A stretch of 42,780 bases of DNA from Thermodesulfovibrio sp. (lineage in GTDB: Bacteria; Nitrospirota; Thermodesulfovibrionia; Thermodesulfovibrionales; UBA6898): positions 1 to 42,780 of the forward strand of contig PNOC01000028.1 in assembly GCA_013824615.1 (NCBI GenBank), in the 5' to 3' direction. The translations under genes were made by a program, and so were the position numbers. The number at the start of each line of letters is the position of its first letter. Within the stretch, counting starts at the first letter, position 1. This document shows, piece by piece, positions 13,199 to 40,239 of this stretch. The notes beneath the pieces were generated by a model. It did no database searches, was not told the DNA's origin, and was given only the letters and a program-made list of their open reading frames with translations.

Positions 13199-15496
13199 GT
13201 GACCAGATTGTTTTCGGCTTCTATACGTACGCAGCTGTTGCTGATTGTCACTATTCTTGCTCTGCCTGCTGCCGCAATTATCGTGTATTCGGGATTCAAA
13301 TTACGTGCGGAGGCAATACAGGAGGCCCGCAACGAGACACAACACCTCTCCTCGGTTATCGCTTCAGAGCAGCAGAATCTTACTGACGCCGCCGAGCAGC
13401 TGCTGGTGGCACTGGCCCAACTGCCGGAGGTACAAAGACCCGATGCCTCCCGGATAAAGCCGATTCTCCGTCGGATCCTGGCGCTGAACGCCCGATATTC
13501 AAATCTCATTATCGCAGACAAGGCTGGAAATATCTGGGCAACGGCAGTAGAAGTAAAACCTCACAACGTCTCGGACAGGAGACATTTCAAGGGAGCCCTG
13601 GCCTCGGGACAGCTGTCGTCCGGTGAATTTCTGATCAGTCCGGTTACCGGCAAAGGGGTACTGCCTCTGGCCTATCCCTATACAAACGAAAAAAGCGAAA
13701 TTTCAGGTGTCATCATTGTTGCTATTGACCTGGACTATTACAAGAAGCTCTTCAGCCGGTTTGAGCTTCCGTCAGGCAAGGGGTATCTGCTGCTTGACCA
13801 CCAGGGCATAATTCTGAGCGCCTCCGGTCCGGGCATATCTGTTGGTACAAGGTATAATCCCCTGGCCTTCAGCAATATGCAGAACGGAAAAGATAAAAGC
13901 ACGGTCATGGAAAAGGGCATGGATGGCAGGAAGCGCTTTATCACGTACCGCAAACTCCAGCTTAAGAGTGAAGACTCGCCCTATTTGTATATCCGCACCG
14001 GTATACCCTTATCGATCGTGCTGAATGCCATAGATAAATCCTTGGCCTTCAATCTGACGCTGTTTACCGTGGGCCTGCTGATTGCCCTTTTTTTTGCGTG
14101 GCTGCTTGGCAAACGCTCAATCGTCGACCGCATCAGTCTCCTGGAAAAAGCCACACGCCGGATTGCACAGGGAGATCTGAACATCACGGTCTCCAGTCTT
14201 ATCGGAGGGGGGGAACTGGGAAACCTCGGGGCCACATTCGACGACATGGCCAGGCAATTGGCCCTGAGAGAGAAGGAACTTACAGGGTACCGCGACCGTT
14301 TGGAGGAAATGGTGTCCGCACGCACCGCTGAAATCTCGGTTTTGAACAACCAGCTGCAGCAGTCCCAGAAGCTGGAGGCGGTGGGTCTGCTGGCCGGCGG
14401 AGTAGCCCATGACTTCCGCAATATCCTTGCGACCATAAAGGGCGCAGTCTATCTGATCCAGAAGAAACTGGAGAAAGAAAGTCCCCTGATCAAATACGCT
14501 GATCAGGTGTCAGCCTCCATTGCCAAGGCAACCAATCTGTCAGACAGCCTTCTTGCCTTCAGCAGAAAACAGGCCGTGGACCTGCAGCCGCTGGCATTGA
14601 ATACCGTCATTCAAAAGACCGAAAATCTGCTGCATCAGGTTGTCGGCGAACACGTTGAACTGATAGTGCAATTGGACGCTGCCCCTTCCGTTGTCCTGGC
14701 AGACAATAATCAACTCGAGCAGGTCCTCTTAAATATGGCAACCAACGCCCGCGATGCGATGCCTGGCGGTGGCAGACTTTTCATCCATACCATGAACTTT
14801 ACCATGGACGAGACCTTTATACGGACCCACGGCTATGGGGTTGCAGGGGACTATATCCTGATGGAGATCTCTGATTCCGGGTTGGGGATCGAGGACGGGG
14901 TGAAGGAAAAAGTCTTTGACCCCTTCTTTACCACAAAAGGGCTCGGAAAAGGCTCGGGGCTGGGACTCGCGGTGACCTATGGCATAGTAAAGCAATACAG
15001 TGGCTATATTGTCATTGAGTCAGAGCCGGAGCAGGGGACGACCTTCCGGATCTATCTGCCGGCGGCAGATGCGACTCCGGTGGAATACAGCCCCACTTTC
15101 CACTGTCCACCCACTGACGGTACAGAAACGCTCCTTCTCGCGGAGGACGATTCCGATACCAGGAGAACCCTGAGTGAAGTACTTAGCCTGTCGGGATACC
15201 GCGTGCTGGAAGCCGCGGACGGGGCAGAAGCCCTGGCGATTTATACGGAGAACAGACACAGCATTGATCTGGTTTTCATCGATGTATGGATGCCGAAGAA
15301 GAACGGGCCCGAAGTCTGCAGACTGATACGGGCAATCAGTCCCGAAGTCAGGTTTCTCTTCATGAGCGGCTATGCGGATGACCTGACGGATGCCCCGGAC
15401 GTACCCGAGAAATTCAGGGACTTCATTTCCAAAGGTGCCCGGCCTGAAGAAATCCTCAGAAAGATACGGAATCTGCTCGACCATCAGGTCAGCTGA
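13199..15496 (+). CDS. Hybrid sensor histidine kinase (Cache-HAMP-HisKA-HATPase-REC)
   Basis: Membrane sensor kinase of 765 residues with its own receiver domain. Helix 1 (about 12-30) and helix 2 (about 284-304) enclose a periplasmic double-Cache-like domain (SNLIIADKAGNIWATAVEVK; KGYLLLDHQGIILSAS). A HAMP domain (about 305-357) and coiled coil follow. HisKA has H404 in GGVAHDFRNILATIKG. The ATPase domain has N516 (NMATNARDAMPGGG), DSGLGI, DPFFTTKG and GSGLGLAVTYGIVKQ. The C-terminal REC (about 643-760) has acidic EDD, phospho-acceptor D695 (FIDVWMPKKNG) and K746-like SKGA. GTG start with GAGAGGGA upstream. No response-regulator gene is adjacent, so its partner and signal are unknown. Confidence 0.93.
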   Translation: MTRLFSASIRTQLLLIVTILALPAAAIIVYSGFKLRAEAIQEARNETQHLSSVIASEQQNLTDAAEQLLVALAQLPEVQRPDASRIKPILRRILALNARYSNLIIADKAGNIWATAVEVKPHNVSDRRHFKGALASGQLSSGEFLISPVTGKGVLPLAYPYTNEKSEISGVIIVAIDLDYYKKLFSRFELPSGKGYLLLDHQGIILSASGPGISVGTRYNPLAFSNMQNGKDKSTVMEKGMDGRKRFITYRKLQLKSEDSPYLYIRTGIPLSIVLNAIDKSLAFNLTLFTVGLLIALFFAWLLGKRSIVDRISLLEKATRRIAQGDLNITVSSLIGGGELGNLGATFDDMARQLALREKELTGYRDRLEEMVSARTAEISVLNNQLQQSQKLEAVGLLAGGVAHDFRNILATIKGAVYLIQKKLEKESPLIKYADQVSASIAKATNLSDSLLAFSRKQAVDLQPLALNTVIQKTENLLHQVVGEHVELIVQLDAAPSVVLADNNQLEQVLLNMATNARDAMPGGGRLFIHTMNFTMDETFIRTHGYGVAGDYILMEISDSGLGIEDGVKEKVFDPFFTTKGLGKGSGLGLAVTYGIVKQYSGYIVIESEPEQGTTFRIYLPAADATPVEYSPTFHCPPTDGTETLLLAEDDSDTRRTLSEVLSLSGYRVLEAADGAEALAIYTENRHSIDLVFIDVWMPKKNGPEVCRLIRAISPEVRFLFMSGYADDLTDAPDVPEKFRDFISKGARPEEILRKIRNLLDHQVS

Positions 15497-18017: not shown

Positions 18018-20018
18018 ATGATTATCAGAACCAAGATTATTACGATCATAGCCGTAACCATTCTGCTTACTGTCGGAGTAACTACTATTGCCCTGATTAA
18101 GTTTCAGAATAACAAGATGATCGAGTCAAAGCTTGAAGATACCGAGTTTCTCTGTGATTTAATCGAAAAGACAACCGAAAGCGCCATGCGTCAGGGCAAC
18201 ACCTCCGAAGTCCAGAGTATCCTTGAAAATATCGGAAAGAACAAAGAAATCCCTTTCCTCAGAATACTCTCCCCTGACGGCACCATACTCAAGTCGACCA
18301 ACAAAGCCGAGATCGGAGCAAAGTCTGCGGAATTCATCAAGTCGTCATCGCGGGAAAATTTTCTAAGGCCTACCCTCACCAATGAAACCACCATCAACTA
18401 TTTCCACAATATTCCCAATGGAAAAGATTGCTACGGCTGCCACGACCAGACAAACCCTGTCATCGGGGTCATCCACCTGAATTACGATATTTCCCGGAAT
18501 GTCGCTACCTTTCTTGCGATCAAGAGAATTCTGATTTTTTCGAATATAGGCATTGTCATCCTTGTCTCTATAATCCTGGGCATCCTCTTTTCGCGCCTTG
18601 TAATGGTCCCGCTCAGACGTCTTATGGATGCAATGCATGCCGTCGAAGGCGGCAACTGGCAGACAACGGTCAGAATAAGCGGCAATGACGAGCTCAATGT
18701 AATCGGCAGATCATTTAACACCATGGTCCAGGAAATCAACAACCTCTATAACAAGAATATTTCCAAAGAGCGCGAACTCTCAAAAATGCGCGGTGAACTG
18801 GAACATAAGAGCAGGGTGGAAGACCTTAACACTCAGCTTGAATTCAAGATCAAAGAACTTGAAACCGCCAACAAGGCGGTCACCGCCCTCTCCCGGGAGG
18901 TGAAGAGCAAAAATATCAAGCTGGAGATGGCTGTCGAGCGGCTGAAGAGGATCAACGAAGTCGGCCGCATCCTGGCATCTATTATCGAGATTCAGGAACT
19001 CATGAAGATCATCATCCAGACGGCTGCAGACCTGGTGAAGGCTGAAAAGGTGACCATGCATCTCAGGAGTGCTGACCGGCCTGAGCTGACCCTGCAGTTC
19101 GTCAGGGGCGTCGGGATACGAAATGCTGAAGAATTCACTGACGACATCAGCCGGGACTATGCCGATACGATCGCTCACGGAAGACCGATCATCAGGAACG
19201 ACGGCCCGGCAGCAGAGCATGCCGACTCCGGGTTGCGGGGTTCGCGGATAGCCGTCCCCCTCAGGATGAAGGGACAGGTCATCGGCGCGATGATAATCGA
19301 GAACAATGCCGACAGCGGTCTCTTTACTGAAAACGAACTGGAACTGCTCACCACCCTCGCAAATCAGGCTATGGTCGCTCTGGAAAATGCCTGGCTGTAC
19401 GAAAATGTCAAGAGCAACTATTTTTCGACCATACAGTCCCTGGTCAATGCCCTGGAAGCTAACGACCGCTTCACCAAAGGCCATTCAGAAAGGGTGCGGC
19501 AGCTCTCTGTCGAACTCGGCCGGTTCATCGGACTTGACGTCAAGGAACTTGAACTGCTCGAACATGCCGCAATTCTCCATGACATCGGCAAAATCGGGAT
19601 TGATAATTTTATACTGCAGAAAAACGGCAGGCTTTCCAGCAAAGAGTACAGCATTATTAAAAACCACCCGCTGATCGGAGACCAGATACTCCAGCCGATC
19701 GGCACCCTTGATGGCGTGCGCAATACGATCATCCAGCACCACGAGCGCTACGACGGCAGCGGCTACCCGTATGGCATACGGGGCGATGAAATATCTCTCA
19801 AGTCCAAGATTCTCTCGGTCGTCGATACCTTTGACGCAATGATGACCGACCGGCCTTACCGGAAGGCACTCCCTGTTTATGAGGTCAAGAACGAACTCAG
19901 GGCGAACGCCGGCACCCAATTCGATCCCTATGTGGTTGCTGCCTTCGTTGACCTGCTCTCTTCAGACGAAGAGCGCATTCTTGCGCTCACCGGATACCAG
20001 AGTCTCGCCGCACTGTAG
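18018..20018 (+). CDS. Heme-c-containing HAMP-GAF-HD-GYP sensor (putative c-di-GMP phosphodiesterase)
   Basis: Membrane receptor of 666 residues. Helix 1 (about 5-28) and helix 2 (about 169-192) flank a periplasmic domain that contains CYGCH (138-142), a CxxCH covalent heme-c site. A HAMP domain (about 193-245), a coiled coil (about 250-312), a GAF domain (about 315-460) and an HD-GYP domain (about 465-660) follow. The phosphodiesterase signatures are intact: HDIGK (521-525), HHERYDGSGYP (574-584) and DTFDAMMTDRPYR. HD-GYP proteins degrade cyclic di-GMP. Heme suggests redox, O2 or NO sensing; the ligand is inferred. ATG with GAGGA 10 nt upstream. It is divergent from der. Confidence 0.93.
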   Translation: MIIRTKIITIIAVTILLTVGVTTIALIKFQNNKMIESKLEDTEFLCDLIEKTTESAMRQGNTSEVQSILENIGKNKEIPFLRILSPDGTILKSTNKAEIGAKSAEFIKSSSRENFLRPTLTNETTINYFHNIPNGKDCYGCHDQTNPVIGVIHLNYDISRNVATFLAIKRILIFSNIGIVILVSIILGILFSRLVMVPLRRLMDAMHAVEGGNWQTTVRISGNDELNVIGRSFNTMVQEINNLYNKNISKERELSKMRGELEHKSRVEDLNTQLEFKIKELETANKAVTALSREVKSKNIKLEMAVERLKRINEVGRILASIIEIQELMKIIIQTAADLVKAEKVTMHLRSADRPELTLQFVRGVGIRNAEEFTDDISRDYADTIAHGRPIIRNDGPAAEHADSGLRGSRIAVPLRMKGQVIGAMIIENNADSGLFTENELELLTTLANQAMVALENAWLYENVKSNYFSTIQSLVNALEANDRFTKGHSERVRQLSVELGRFIGLDVKELELLEHAAILHDIGKIGIDNFILQKNGRLSSKEYSIIKNHPLIGDQILQPIGTLDGVRNTIIQHHERYDGSGYPYGIRGDEISLKSKILSVVDTFDAMMTDRPYRKALPVYEVKNELRANAGTQFDPYVVAAFVDLLSSDEERILALTGYQSLAAL

Positions 20019-20116
20019 TTGAGCGGTTGAGACCAATTCCTTCCCTGCAGCCGATTCCGCACATTTTTTTGAAATAATGAGGTTGTTGTCATTATATCTG
20101 CGCCGGTTGTTCACAT

Positions 20117-20146
20117 TTGTCATGCGCCGGCCAGATGAGGTATTAT
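20117..20146 (+). promoter_or_regulatory. Sigma-70-type promoter for the K+ channel gene
   Basis: TTGTCA (20117-20122), an 18-bp spacer and TATTAT (20141-20146). Transcription would begin near 20153, about 20 nt before the chosen ATG at 20173. This argues against an upstream in-frame start at 20077. Confidence 0.5.
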
Positions 20147-20172
20147 TATTCTGCTTTTGCAAAGGGCATGGC

Positions 20173-21171
20173 ATGAAAATCTATAAAAAACTGACAGGCA
20201 TTCTCCTCGCCCTGGCGGGCATCCTGGTGACCGGACTTCTGGGCTATTCATTCCTTGAGGGGTGGTCCACGCTTGAAGCACTCTATATGACTGTTATTAC
20301 CCTCTCCTCCGTCGGCTTCATGGAAGTTCATCCCCTTTCCAATGCCGGCAGGATTTTCACCATGCTGCTGATCCTGTTGGGCTCGGGGGTATTGATATAC
20401 GGCATTTCCGTTATCACCGCTTTTGTGGTGGAGGGCGAACTAACCGACGTACTCAGGAGGAGATCAATGGAAAAGAAAATCGCGGGACTTCACGCGCATT
20501 ATATTATTTGCGGTGTCAGTCAAACCGGACGGTATGTCATCGATGAACTTCTAAAAACCAAAAAAAACTTCGTGGTCATCGAAAAAGACCCGGGCAAAAT
20601 AAAGCAATTAATCACGGAAAACATTCTCTGTATTGAGGGCGATGCAACGCACGATGCGGTCCTGATGAAAGCCGGCATACAGAAGGCGAAAGGGGCGATC
20701 ACCGCCCTGCACTCTGATGCGGAAAACCTCTTTGTTGTAATCACTGCGAAAAGTCTCAATCCGGCCCTCCGGGTGATTTCCAAGGCGGTCGAAGAGGAGT
20801 CCGAGCAGAAGATCCGGATGGTCGGCGCTGATGGCGTGGTCATGCCCAACTACATCGGAGGCCTCAGAATGGCCTCAGAATTGATCCGTCCCTCTGTTGT
20901 CGGTTTTCTTGATATCATGCTCCGCTCAACTGACCACACCATACGGGTCGAGGAGATTGAAATTGCCGCGGAGTCACGGTTCGCCGGAAGGACGCTGCAG
21001 CAGACCGGCATCCCCGAAACAGAAGGCGTAACTGTCGTAGCCCTGAAGGACAGAACAAAGGATACCTATGTCTTCAACCCGTCTCTGCAGACGGTCCTCA
21101 GTTCCGGCCACGTCCTCATCGTTATAGGAAACATTGATCTCATACGGGGCATTGACAGCAGGCAGGTGTAA
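20173..21171 (+). CDS. Two-helix potassium channel with RCK (TrkA-N/TrkA-C) domain
   Basis: MthK/Kch-like ion channel, 332 residues. Helix 1 (about 8-27), pore loop and filter (TVITLSSVGFMEVHP, 41-55), helix 2 (about 60-84), then a cytoplasmic RCK domain beginning HYIICGVSQTGRYVIDEL with the acidic strand end VVIEKDP, and a TrkA-C module (about 250-332). The filter reads SSVGFME rather than TVGYGD; VGF-type filters occur in some bacterial K+ channels. The Rossmann glycines are GVSQTG instead of GxGxxG, so nucleotide preference is uncertain. ATG at 20173 with AAAGGG upstream is preferred to the frame's earlier ATG at 20077, which gives a basic non-family extension and precedes the likely promoter. 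Confidence 0.9.
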   Translation: MKIYKKLTGILLALAGILVTGLLGYSFLEGWSTLEALYMTVITLSSVGFMEVHPLSNAGRIFTMLLILLGSGVLIYGISVITAFVVEGELTDVLRRRSMEKKIAGLHAHYIICGVSQTGRYVIDELLKTKKNFVVIEKDPGKIKQLITENILCIEGDATHDAVLMKAGIQKAKGAITALHSDAENLFVVITAKSLNPALRVISKAVEEESEQKIRMVGADGVVMPNYIGGLRMASELIRPSVVGFLDIMLRSTDHTIRVEEIEIAAESRFAGRTLQQTGIPETEGVTVVALKDRTKDTYVFNPSLQTVLSSGHVLIVIGNIDLIRGIDSRQV

Positions 21172-38227: not shown

Positions 38228-39061
38228 ATGTGGGAGTACACGGATAAGGTAAAAGAGACCTTCCTCAAACCGAAAAATGTCGGGGAGATCAAGAACGCTG
38301 ACGCAGTCGGAGAGGTGGGCAGTATCATCTGCGGGGATGCGCTTAAGCTCTACCTTAAGATCGATAGGGAAAGCGGAATGATAACGGACGCAAAATTTCA
38401 GACCTTCGGGTGTGCAAGTGCCATTGCTAGTTCGTCGGCACTAACCGAAATGGTCAGAGGGAAAACGCTTGATGAGGCCCTGCAACTCACGAATCAGGAC
38501 ATAGCAGATTATCTCGGAGGTCTCCCTGACCAGAAGATGCACTGTTCGGTCATGGGAAGAGAGGCACTTGAGACGGCAATTTCCGCTTACCGGGGGGGGG
38601 CCGTGCCTGTGAAGGAAGAGGGAAAGGTCATCTGCAAATGTTTTGACGTTACTGAAGAGAAGATACGGAAAGTCGCTCTGGAAAACCGCCTGACAACGGT
38701 TGATGAAATCACTAATTTCACCAAGGCCGGAGGCGGTTGCGGGGAATGCAAAGCCAATATCGAGATAATTCTCCGGGACATCTGGCCGCTAAAGCTCCCT
38801 GAAAAGACTACCAAAGAGAAAAAGCTGACAAATCTGCAGAAAATAGCCCTGATACAGGAAGTCATTGAGAGTCAAATCAGGCCTGGCCTGCAGGCGGACA
38901 ATGGGGATGTTGAACTGGTTGATGTCGAGGGAAACAGGGTGGTCATTGCTTTGAGGGGCCTTTGCACCGGCTGTGCCATGTCCGGCGTCACCGTAAGGGC
39001 GATGAGGGACAAACTCAGAGAACTGGTGGCTGACAATATTGAAGTCGAGGTTCAGGCGTGA
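38228..39061 (+). CDS. nifU: Fe-S cluster scaffold NifU (three-domain)
   Basis: Full-length NifU of 277 residues. The IscU-like domain has C35 (IICGDALK), C62 (FGCASA) and C106 (MHCSVMG). The central BFD-like [2Fe-2S] domain has CKC (136-138) and GGGCGEC (168-174). The C-terminal NifU/Nfu domain has CTGC (246-249). It assembles Fe-S clusters from sulfur supplied by the cysteine desulfurase encoded next. The G8 run at 38592-38599 is within frame. No clear Shine-Dalgarno is visible. No nitrogenase genes are in the window, so this is probably a housekeeping or stress Fe-S system as in several anaerobes. Confidence 0.96.
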   Translation: MWEYTDKVKETFLKPKNVGEIKNADAVGEVGSIICGDALKLYLKIDRESGMITDAKFQTFGCASAIASSSALTEMVRGKTLDEALQLTNQDIADYLGGLPDQKMHCSVMGREALETAISAYRGGAVPVKEEGKVICKCFDVTEEKIRKVALENRLTTVDEITNFTKAGGGCGECKANIEIILRDIWPLKLPEKTTKEKKLTNLQKIALIQEVIESQIRPGLQADNGDVELVDVEGNRVVIALRGLCTGCAMSGVTVRAMRDKLRELVADNIEVEVQA

Positions 39062-40239
39062 GCATTACCTACCTCGATAGCAACGCGACAACACAAACCG
39101 CGCCGGAGGTCCTGGAGGCGATGAGGCCTTTTCTTGCAGACCTCTACGGTAATCCTTCAAGCATGCATACTTTTGGCGGGCAGGTCCATCGCAGAATCGA
39201 GGAGGCTCGGTCGCAGGTGGCACGGCTTATCAACGCCGACCCTGCAGAAATCATTTTCACGAGTTGCGGAACCGAAAGCGATAATACGGCTCTCATGACT
39301 GCGGTCGAGACCAATCCACGAAAGAAACATATTATTACCACCAGGGTCGAACATCCTGCAGTCCTGAACTTCTGTCATCATCTCGGCAGAAAAGGTTTCC
39401 GGATAACCTATCTGCCTGTCGGCGGGAATGGAGAAATCGACCCGGACCTCCTCCTGAAATCGGTCGACGATGAGACCACTCTGGTTTCGGTCATGTACGC
39501 CAATAACGAAACAGGTGTCATCTTCCCTATCGAGGAGATCGCCGGAAGACTTGCTGACCGGGGTATTATGTTCCATACCGATGCGGTCCAGGCCGTCGGG
39601 AAAATTCCGGTCAATGTCAGAGATACGAGCATCGACATGCTCTCTCTGTCCGGACACAAAATCCATGCTCCAAAAGGCATCGGCGCCCTCTATGTAAGAA
39701 AGGGAAGAAGGTTTCATTCCTATATCATCGGAGGCCACCAGGAACACGGCAGAAGGGCCGGCACTGAAAATGTGGCCTCGATCATCGGGTTTGGAAAGGC
39801 AGCAGAACTTGCGCTGACAACACTTGAAGAAGAAAAGACATCTGTCAGCAGGCTTCGCGACAGACTCGAACAGGGACTGCTGGCATCGTGTCCGGATGCC
39901 AGGGTGAACGGCGATACTGCACACCGGTTGCCGAATACGACGAACATAAGCTTTGAATACATCGAAGGTGAAGCTATCCTGCTGAGACTCGATGAGTACG
40001 GAATCTGCGCATCATCGGGCTCCGCCTGCTCCTCGGGCTCGCTGGAACCTTCACATGTCCTGCGCGCCATGGGAATACCCTATACCGCAGTGCATGGTTC
40101 GATAAGATTTTCACTCAGCCGGTATACAACTGAACAGGAGATTGACCGCGTTATAGGTTTGATGCCGGGCATTGTAAAAGAACTCAGGGAACTCTCGCCG
40201 TTCGGAAGAGACGGGGTGACCGGCCCCAAGCAGAAATAA
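39058..40239 (+). CDS. nifS: Cysteine desulfurase (NifS/IscS family)
   Basis: PLP enzyme of 393 residues that removes sulfur from cysteine for cluster assembly. It opens YLDSNATTQTAPEVLEAM (family start), with THxx-type GTESDNTAL, HTDAVQAVGK, PLP lysine K201 in SLSGHKIHAPKG, and active-site C324 in SSGSACSSGSLEPSHVL. GTG start at 39058 overlaps the nifU stop as GTGA, so the scaffold and sulfur donor are translated together. The family split between NifS and IscS rests on the adjacent NifU. Confidence 0.95.
   Translation: MSITYLDSNATTQTAPEVLEAMRPFLADLYGNPSSMHTFGGQVHRRIEEARSQVARLINADPAEIIFTSCGTESDNTALMTAVETNPRKKHIITTRVEHPAVLNFCHHLGRKGFRITYLPVGGNGEIDPDLLLKSVDDETTLVSVMYANNETGVIFPIEEIAGRLADRGIMFHTDAVQAVGKIPVNVRDTSIDMLSLSGHKIHAPKGIGALYVRKGRRFHSYIIGGHQEHGRRAGTENVASIIGFGKAAELALTTLEEEKTSVSRLRDRLEQGLLASCPDARVNGDTAHRLPNTTNISFEYIEGEAILLRLDEYGICASSGSACSSGSLEPSHVLRAMGIPYTAVHGSIRFSLSRYTTEQEIDRVIGLMPGIVKELRELSPFGRDGVTGPKQK

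Follow-up and report, generated by a model that had tools for sequence, protein, structure and literature searches.

A predicted periplasmic haem-c Cache sensor joined to HAMP, GAF and HD-GYP domains in a conserved Nitrospirota receptor

The stretch of Thermodesulfovibrio sp. DNA analysed in the current work (42,780 nucleotides of contig PNOC01000028.1, hereafter "the window") contains an open reading frame that is opened by an ATG at position 18018, extends to position 20018 on the forward strand and specifies a protein of 666 amino acids. The features of this gene are as follows, with the boundaries of both membrane helices being approximate:

18018-20018, + strand: whole gene (666 aa), with the layout transmembrane helix, periplasmic haem-c Cache sensor (predicted), transmembrane helix, HAMP, linker, GAF, HD-GYP
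18036-18104, + strand: transmembrane helix 1 (TM1), approximately aa 7-29, from hydropathy
18105-18518, + strand: predicted periplasmic single-Cache haem-c sensor, approximately aa 30-167, from PF21563 and 3b42/3b47 profile matches and an AlphaFold model
18186-18188, + strand: Met57 codon (the residue being the predicted distal ligand of the haem), from alignment with Met60 of 3b42
18429-18443, + strand: CYGCH (aa 138-142), predicted haem c attachment site with His142 as proximal ligand
18519-18587, + strand: transmembrane helix 2 (TM2), approximately aa 168-190, from hydropathy
18585-18740, + strand: HAMP domain, aa 190-241 (PF00672, E 2.6e-12)
18741-18989, + strand: linker between HAMP and GAF, probably a coiled coil, from its position and weak sub-threshold matches to coiled-coil families
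18990-19382, + strand: GAF domain, aa 325-455 (PF01590, E 2.6e-13)
19440-19931, + strand: HD-GYP phosphodiesterase domain (HD_5), aa 475-638, signature residues intact (PF13487, E 2e-34)

Hydropathy analysis revealed hydrophobic 19-residue windows beginning at aa 1-12, and again at aa 162-182 and 185, which places TM1 within approximately aa 1-30 and TM2 within approximately aa 162-200, with CYGCH between the two. The HAMP, GAF and HD_5 matches all exceed the Pfam gathering score, and the HD-GYP domain contains H489, H521-D522, H550, H574-H575, the GYP of positions 582-584 and D603, residues with a metal role. The first-pass annotation of this DNA had placed CYGCH between two membrane helices and upstream of intact HAMP, GAF and HD-GYP domains, an arrangement that is confirmed by hydropathy, Pfam and the table of residues. 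Its description of a small periplasmic domain with a single CxxCH was equally borne out, the domain comprising approximately 138 residues and CYGCH being the only copy in the protein, whose three cysteines occupy positions 46, 138 and 141. The sole other CxxCH in a six-frame scan of the window is situated in a 41-codon open stretch.

Sequence and modelled fold both identify the periplasmic domain as a single Cache domain, with GSU0935 and GSU0582 as homologous haem-c sensors. When compared with PDB sequences, a single-sequence query matches GSU0935 (3b42) at E 5.2e-4, and a profile of 27 orthologues produced convincing matches to 3b42 (GSU0935, E 8.1e-9) and 3b47 (GSU0582, E 7.5e-6) only. The sensor scores 23.7-26.7 bits (25.3 in the run on the orthologue set) with PF21563 (Mcp40H-20_sensor, a family named for an MCP sensor), the cut-off of which is 27; PF21563 matches 27 of 27 orthologues of set A1 at E <= 0.01 (best 2.1e-9), and two MCP paralogues encoded by the same genome exceed its cut-off. 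A Pfam profile search of the 666-aa protein returned no match to PF11845 (Tll0287-like), a family matched by only 2 of the 27 orthologues, and weakly. Narrow membership of the Tll0287-like group was rejected, since the protein lacks a PF11845 match and Cys46 is not conserved; for the latter reason, Cys46 was also rejected as axial ligand.

An AlphaFold model covering aa 26-172, built from 17 sequences and without haem (pLDDT 85.7, pTM 0.79), was found by Foldseek and VIA to match mostly Cache sensors, including WalK, CitA and DctB. WalK is ranked first by Foldseek (E 6.6e-6), followed by 3b42 in second (E 2.1e-5) and 3b47 in twentieth position; with VIA, 130 residues were aligned with WalK (Z 14.2, rmsd 2.9), and 3b42 and 3b47 are absent among the 50 matches listed for the sensor model. 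The superposition with 3b42 is poor (rmsd 14.6, TM 0.39-0.43), which may be attributed to the helix-swapped dimer published for the crystals. Considering that haem-free Cache domains such as WalK superpose best, the domain could be an ordinary ligand-binding Cache domain without haem, in which CxxCH serves as a disulphide or a metal site. We hold this to be very unlikely, because the aligned residues of 3b42 and 3b47 bear haem c (PMC8396549), and because a disulphide or a CxxC redox pair requires neither His142 nor Met57, both of which are invariant in the homologues described below.

Orthologues of the receptor occur in 19 of the 27 genomes of the family, a count which comprises the strong matches (L001 and L007-L024), with weaker matches being regarded as paralogues. 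At the level of the order, a match at E <= 1e-15 is found in 46 of 149 genomes, and the group can therefore do without the receptor; an even sampling of the phylum gave matches in 34 of 198 genomes, some of these being kinase-like proteins. The HD-GYP signature is present in 17 of the 19 family orthologues, with the remaining two truncated at contig ends, and all ten homologues inspected in the order's other families have kept the HD-GYP output. The first-pass annotation had named a lack of CxxCH conservation in close homologues as grounds for refuting its reading; the motif was observed in 19/19 family orthologues and in 45/45 order-level homologues that reach the site. In these 45 sequences C138, C141 and H142 are invariant (the 46th is a fragment that stops before the site), the two residues enclosed by the cysteines differ between sequences (YG, HG, FR, LG, YS, FA, MG, QA and others), and Met57 is present in all 46 aligned sequences. 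Full invariance in this order-level set extends beyond the haem residues to G60, R82, G88, S93, E98, G100 and G150 of the sensor.

The picture is narrower in a set of 38 sequences with differing outputs (HD-GYP, MCP and kinase proteins, and PDB entries), assembled from A1 (15 of its 27 sequences), from 21 other loci (including MCP and histidine kinase proteins) and from two PDB fragments: here, only M57, N134, C138, C141 and H142 form columns of 100% identity, with the caveat that in L005 and L025 the cysteines are separated by four residues, and that the histidine which the aligner assigned to the H142 column of these two is located two residues downstream. These two loci have CX4CH at the aligned site and one CxxCH elsewhere in the reading frame, and two further related sensors (L027 and L034) have two CxxCH motifs each in the reading frame. 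CxxCH is a short motif, which occurred in 21 of 100,000 shuffled versions of the protein sequence, and it might thus have arisen by chance in an unrelated periplasmic domain. This explanation is extremely improbable in view of the homology to 3b42 and 3b47 and the invariance of both cysteines and the histidine among homologues, and it was rejected on the basis of the family, order-level and 38-sequence conservation given above.

Since the first, broader alignment was too diverse for a genome-wide search, a closer subset (A2) was used instead, which yielded 16 loci, all in Nitrospirae or Nitrospiraceae records. A divergent der gene (specifying a GTPase) adjoins the orthologue in 16 of 16 A2 loci and in seven of ten order-level loci examined. 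Because der is a housekeeping gene, this adjacency supports orthology, not function. The gene downstream of the receptor (20077-21171), which on visual inspection resembles that of a potassium channel bearing a TrkA-type domain, recurs in 9 of 16 A2 loci and in none of the ten order-level loci, these being short. No RNA element was matched in an Rfam search of the window, and a promoter and terminator scan identified no convincing site directly upstream of the receptor gene. Elsewhere in the window, the region 13199-15496 (+ strand) specifies a 765-aa protein that by eye is a hybrid of periplasmic sensor, HAMP, histidine kinase and receiver, and 38228-40239 (+ strand) contains, again by eye, NifU-like and then NifS-like genes with a four-base overlap.

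In the single-sequence alignment, Met57 pairs with position 26 of the 3b42 chain; position 110 of this chain is the histidine of CxxCH, being His144, and position 26 therefore represents Met60. Met60 of GSU0935 has been reported as the distal haem ligand, which leaves the haem on oxidation and gives way to CO or NO (PMC8396549). The alignment of Met57 with this ligand leads to the prediction of His142/Met57 ligation and of a redox- or NO-driven methionine switch, the predicted contact of Met57 with the haem being derived from that alignment. Met57 (residue 32 of the model) is located near the end of a helix (model residues 2-33) which continues from TM1, so that a change of ligand might be transmitted straight to TM1.

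The earlier proposal, in which a periplasmic sensor with covalent haem c is coupled to HD-GYP, is thus, as far as sequence can indicate, supported as the best reading. It is favoured by the homology to two solved haem-c sensors and the Cache fold, by the invariance of the haem-binding residues and the predicted distal methionine, and by the presence in the genome of cytochrome c assembly genes (five Cytochrom_C_asm genes, all above cut-off). By analogy with the characterised relatives, haem would be attached to the sensor, and the receptor very probably carries this covalent haem outside the membrane, by means of which it would control an inner enzyme degrading a signalling molecule.

We consider it fairly probable that the protein belongs to the periplasmic haem-c Cache family (PF21563 / sCache_heme type) and acts as a one-component transmembrane receptor and phosphodiesterase that is switched by Met57. 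In the proposed mechanism, Cys138 and Cys141 would hold haem c, with His142 as proximal and Met57 as distal ligand, and the reduced haem would keep Met57 bound in a low-spin state. Oxidation in the periplasm, or binding of NO (or CO), would release Met57, upon which the N-terminal helix and TM1 would shift; this shift would be relayed through HAMP, the linker and GAF to the HD-GYP domain, with altered cyclic dinucleotide breakdown as a result. The methionine switch, with redox or NO as its signal, is modelled on characterised relatives: in GSU0582 and GSU0935, Met60 is described as being reversibly displaced on oxidation and by CO and NO (PMC8396549), and slow NO release has been reported for a signalling sCache_heme protein (PMC12889525).

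The same haem-c sensor might alternatively be dedicated to NO, such that the physiological signal consists in NO binding to the ferrous haem, with redox changes being incidental. Consistent with this, the genome harbours two genes of the Prismane family, which includes proteins linked to NO stress and also CO dehydrogenases. A HAMP-bearing sCache_heme protein moreover displays NO-sensor-like kinetics without a stable O2 complex (PMC12889525), but the signalling target of that study lacks the axial cysteine and its Results are silent on a distal methionine. The distal methionine is invariant here, as it is in GSU0582 and GSU0935, for which a redox-linked switch was proposed (PMC8396549), and a receptor dedicated to NO consequently appears somewhat unlikely.

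With regard to the output of the predicted Met57-switched receptor, the solved HD-GYP domain with the best match is 5z7c, named 3',3'-cGAMP-specific phosphodiesterase 3 (E 1.3e-38), with 4mcw following closely (E 4.6e-36). For this reason the c-di-GMP breakdown stated in the first-pass annotation is to be seen as an assumption; c-di-GMP is the most likely substrate and 3',3'-cGAMP a possible one. An output acting as 3',3'-cGAMP (or dual) phosphodiesterase, which would tune cGAMP rather than c-di-GMP signalling, would also agree with the alignments, where the glutamate found in 4mcw three residues before the Asn-His of the first helix motif is replaced by phenylalanine here and by tyrosine in 5z7c. 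However, 4mcw is nearly as close as 5z7c, and the genome points to ordinary c-di-GMP signalling, with GGDEF matched 21 times (19 over cut-off), PilZ 14 times and the c-di-GMP-I riboswitch once, so that a cGAMP-directed output is judged unlikely. HD_5 matches in the genome number 20, of which 19 are over cut-off. Two homologues from a single genus (L074 and L075, in genomes G066 and G214) have kept Met57 and CxxCH and carry the substitutions H489R and H521C/S, which suggests a haem sensor that is retained on an enzyme that is probably dead.

A search for the same domain in other receptors, as proposed in the earlier annotation, located the sensor with MCP and histidine kinase outputs as well. 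Within the same genome, the sensor query identified six places, one of which is the HD-GYP gene itself; the others are two PF21563-HAMP-MCP proteins (L002 and L003), two HAMP-HisKA-HATPase proteins (L004 and L005) and a Tll0287-like GGDEF protein (L006) with a weak match (E 9.7e-4). The kinase gene L004 (contig C14, 54618-56050), with a sensor of the haem-c type, has as its neighbour a gene for cytochrome c assembly that is read from the same strand, and L006 (contig C3, 1192-2433) specifies a membrane Tll0287-like (PF11845) sensor fused to GGDEF. Judging by its domains, L006 may put the other side of cyclic-dinucleotide turnover under the control of a sensor of the haem-c type. A more speculative extension, to which we assign a low probability, is that the redox switch of a methionine on TM1 is the common trigger of the whole Nitrospirota haem-c Cache set (in one genome, the phosphodiesterase, two MCPs, two kinases and the Tll0287-type GGDEF cyclase), whereby periplasmic redox poise would jointly set motility, transcription and second messenger, with the HD-GYP domain having decayed in one genus to a non-catalytic, haem-controlled effector.

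Among known systems, GSU2622 of Geobacter sulfurreducens also possesses HAMP, GAF and HD-GYP domains together with one c-type haem motif, a likeness in architecture as printed (PMC8396549), and its host belongs to a phylum different from that of the Nitrospirota receptor. GSU2622 has been described as a GAF phosphohydrolase predicted to bind haem (PMC2923632) and as a putative phosphodiesterase gene that is upregulated in a regulator mutant (PMC10599522), and it appears in a network analysis (PMC11283642). The sCache_heme or Tll0287-like (PF11845) proteins share the Cache fold with CxxCH and have signalling outputs that include c-di-GMP enzymes (PMC12889525), but differ from the orthologues described here in view of the two weak PF11845 matches among 27. 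In the haem-c Cache family CxxCH is reported to be 99% conserved, with a HAMP-bearing member binding NO, and the main text of that publication contains no mention of HD-GYP (PMC12889525). The sensors of GSU0935 and GSU0582 (3b42 and 3b47) are homologous to the one described here, with CxxCH and the distal methionine aligning, but their output is a chemotaxis (MCP) domain instead of HD-GYP, and identity in the Foldseek alignments is approximately 15-21%. The haem of globins is held non-covalently. A globin-coupled HD-GYP protein (PMC10882959) likewise employs a redox or gas sensor to drive an HD-GYP phosphodiesterase, but through a cytoplasmic globin haem, and Bhr-HD-GYP (PMC8846402) is likewise sensor-driven, but through cytoplasmic hemerythrin iron and not a periplasmic haem c.

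Since GSU2622 has already been published as a HAMP/GAF/HD-GYP protein with a c-type haem motif, and since published characterisation of the sensor family also exists (PMC8396549, PMC2923632, PMC12889525), the receptor is not new in kind. What is new is the conserved Nitrospirota family, often adjoining der and known here mainly from metagenome assemblies, and the genus in which the haem site is kept and two HD-GYP histidines are lost. Literature searches on HD-GYP proteins with c-type haem or periplasmic sensors yielded no assay of any haem-c HD-GYP protein, and the studies of the sensor that were consulted concern two chemoreceptors, one protein with HAMP and domains standing alone (PMC8396549, PMC12889525). 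If correct, the reading presented here would provide a direct path from periplasmic redox or NO, via a covalent haem, to cyclic-dinucleotide breakdown. The HD-GYP member would thereby supply an enzyme read-out for the proposed methionine-ligand switch, and represents a clean test case rather than a new class.
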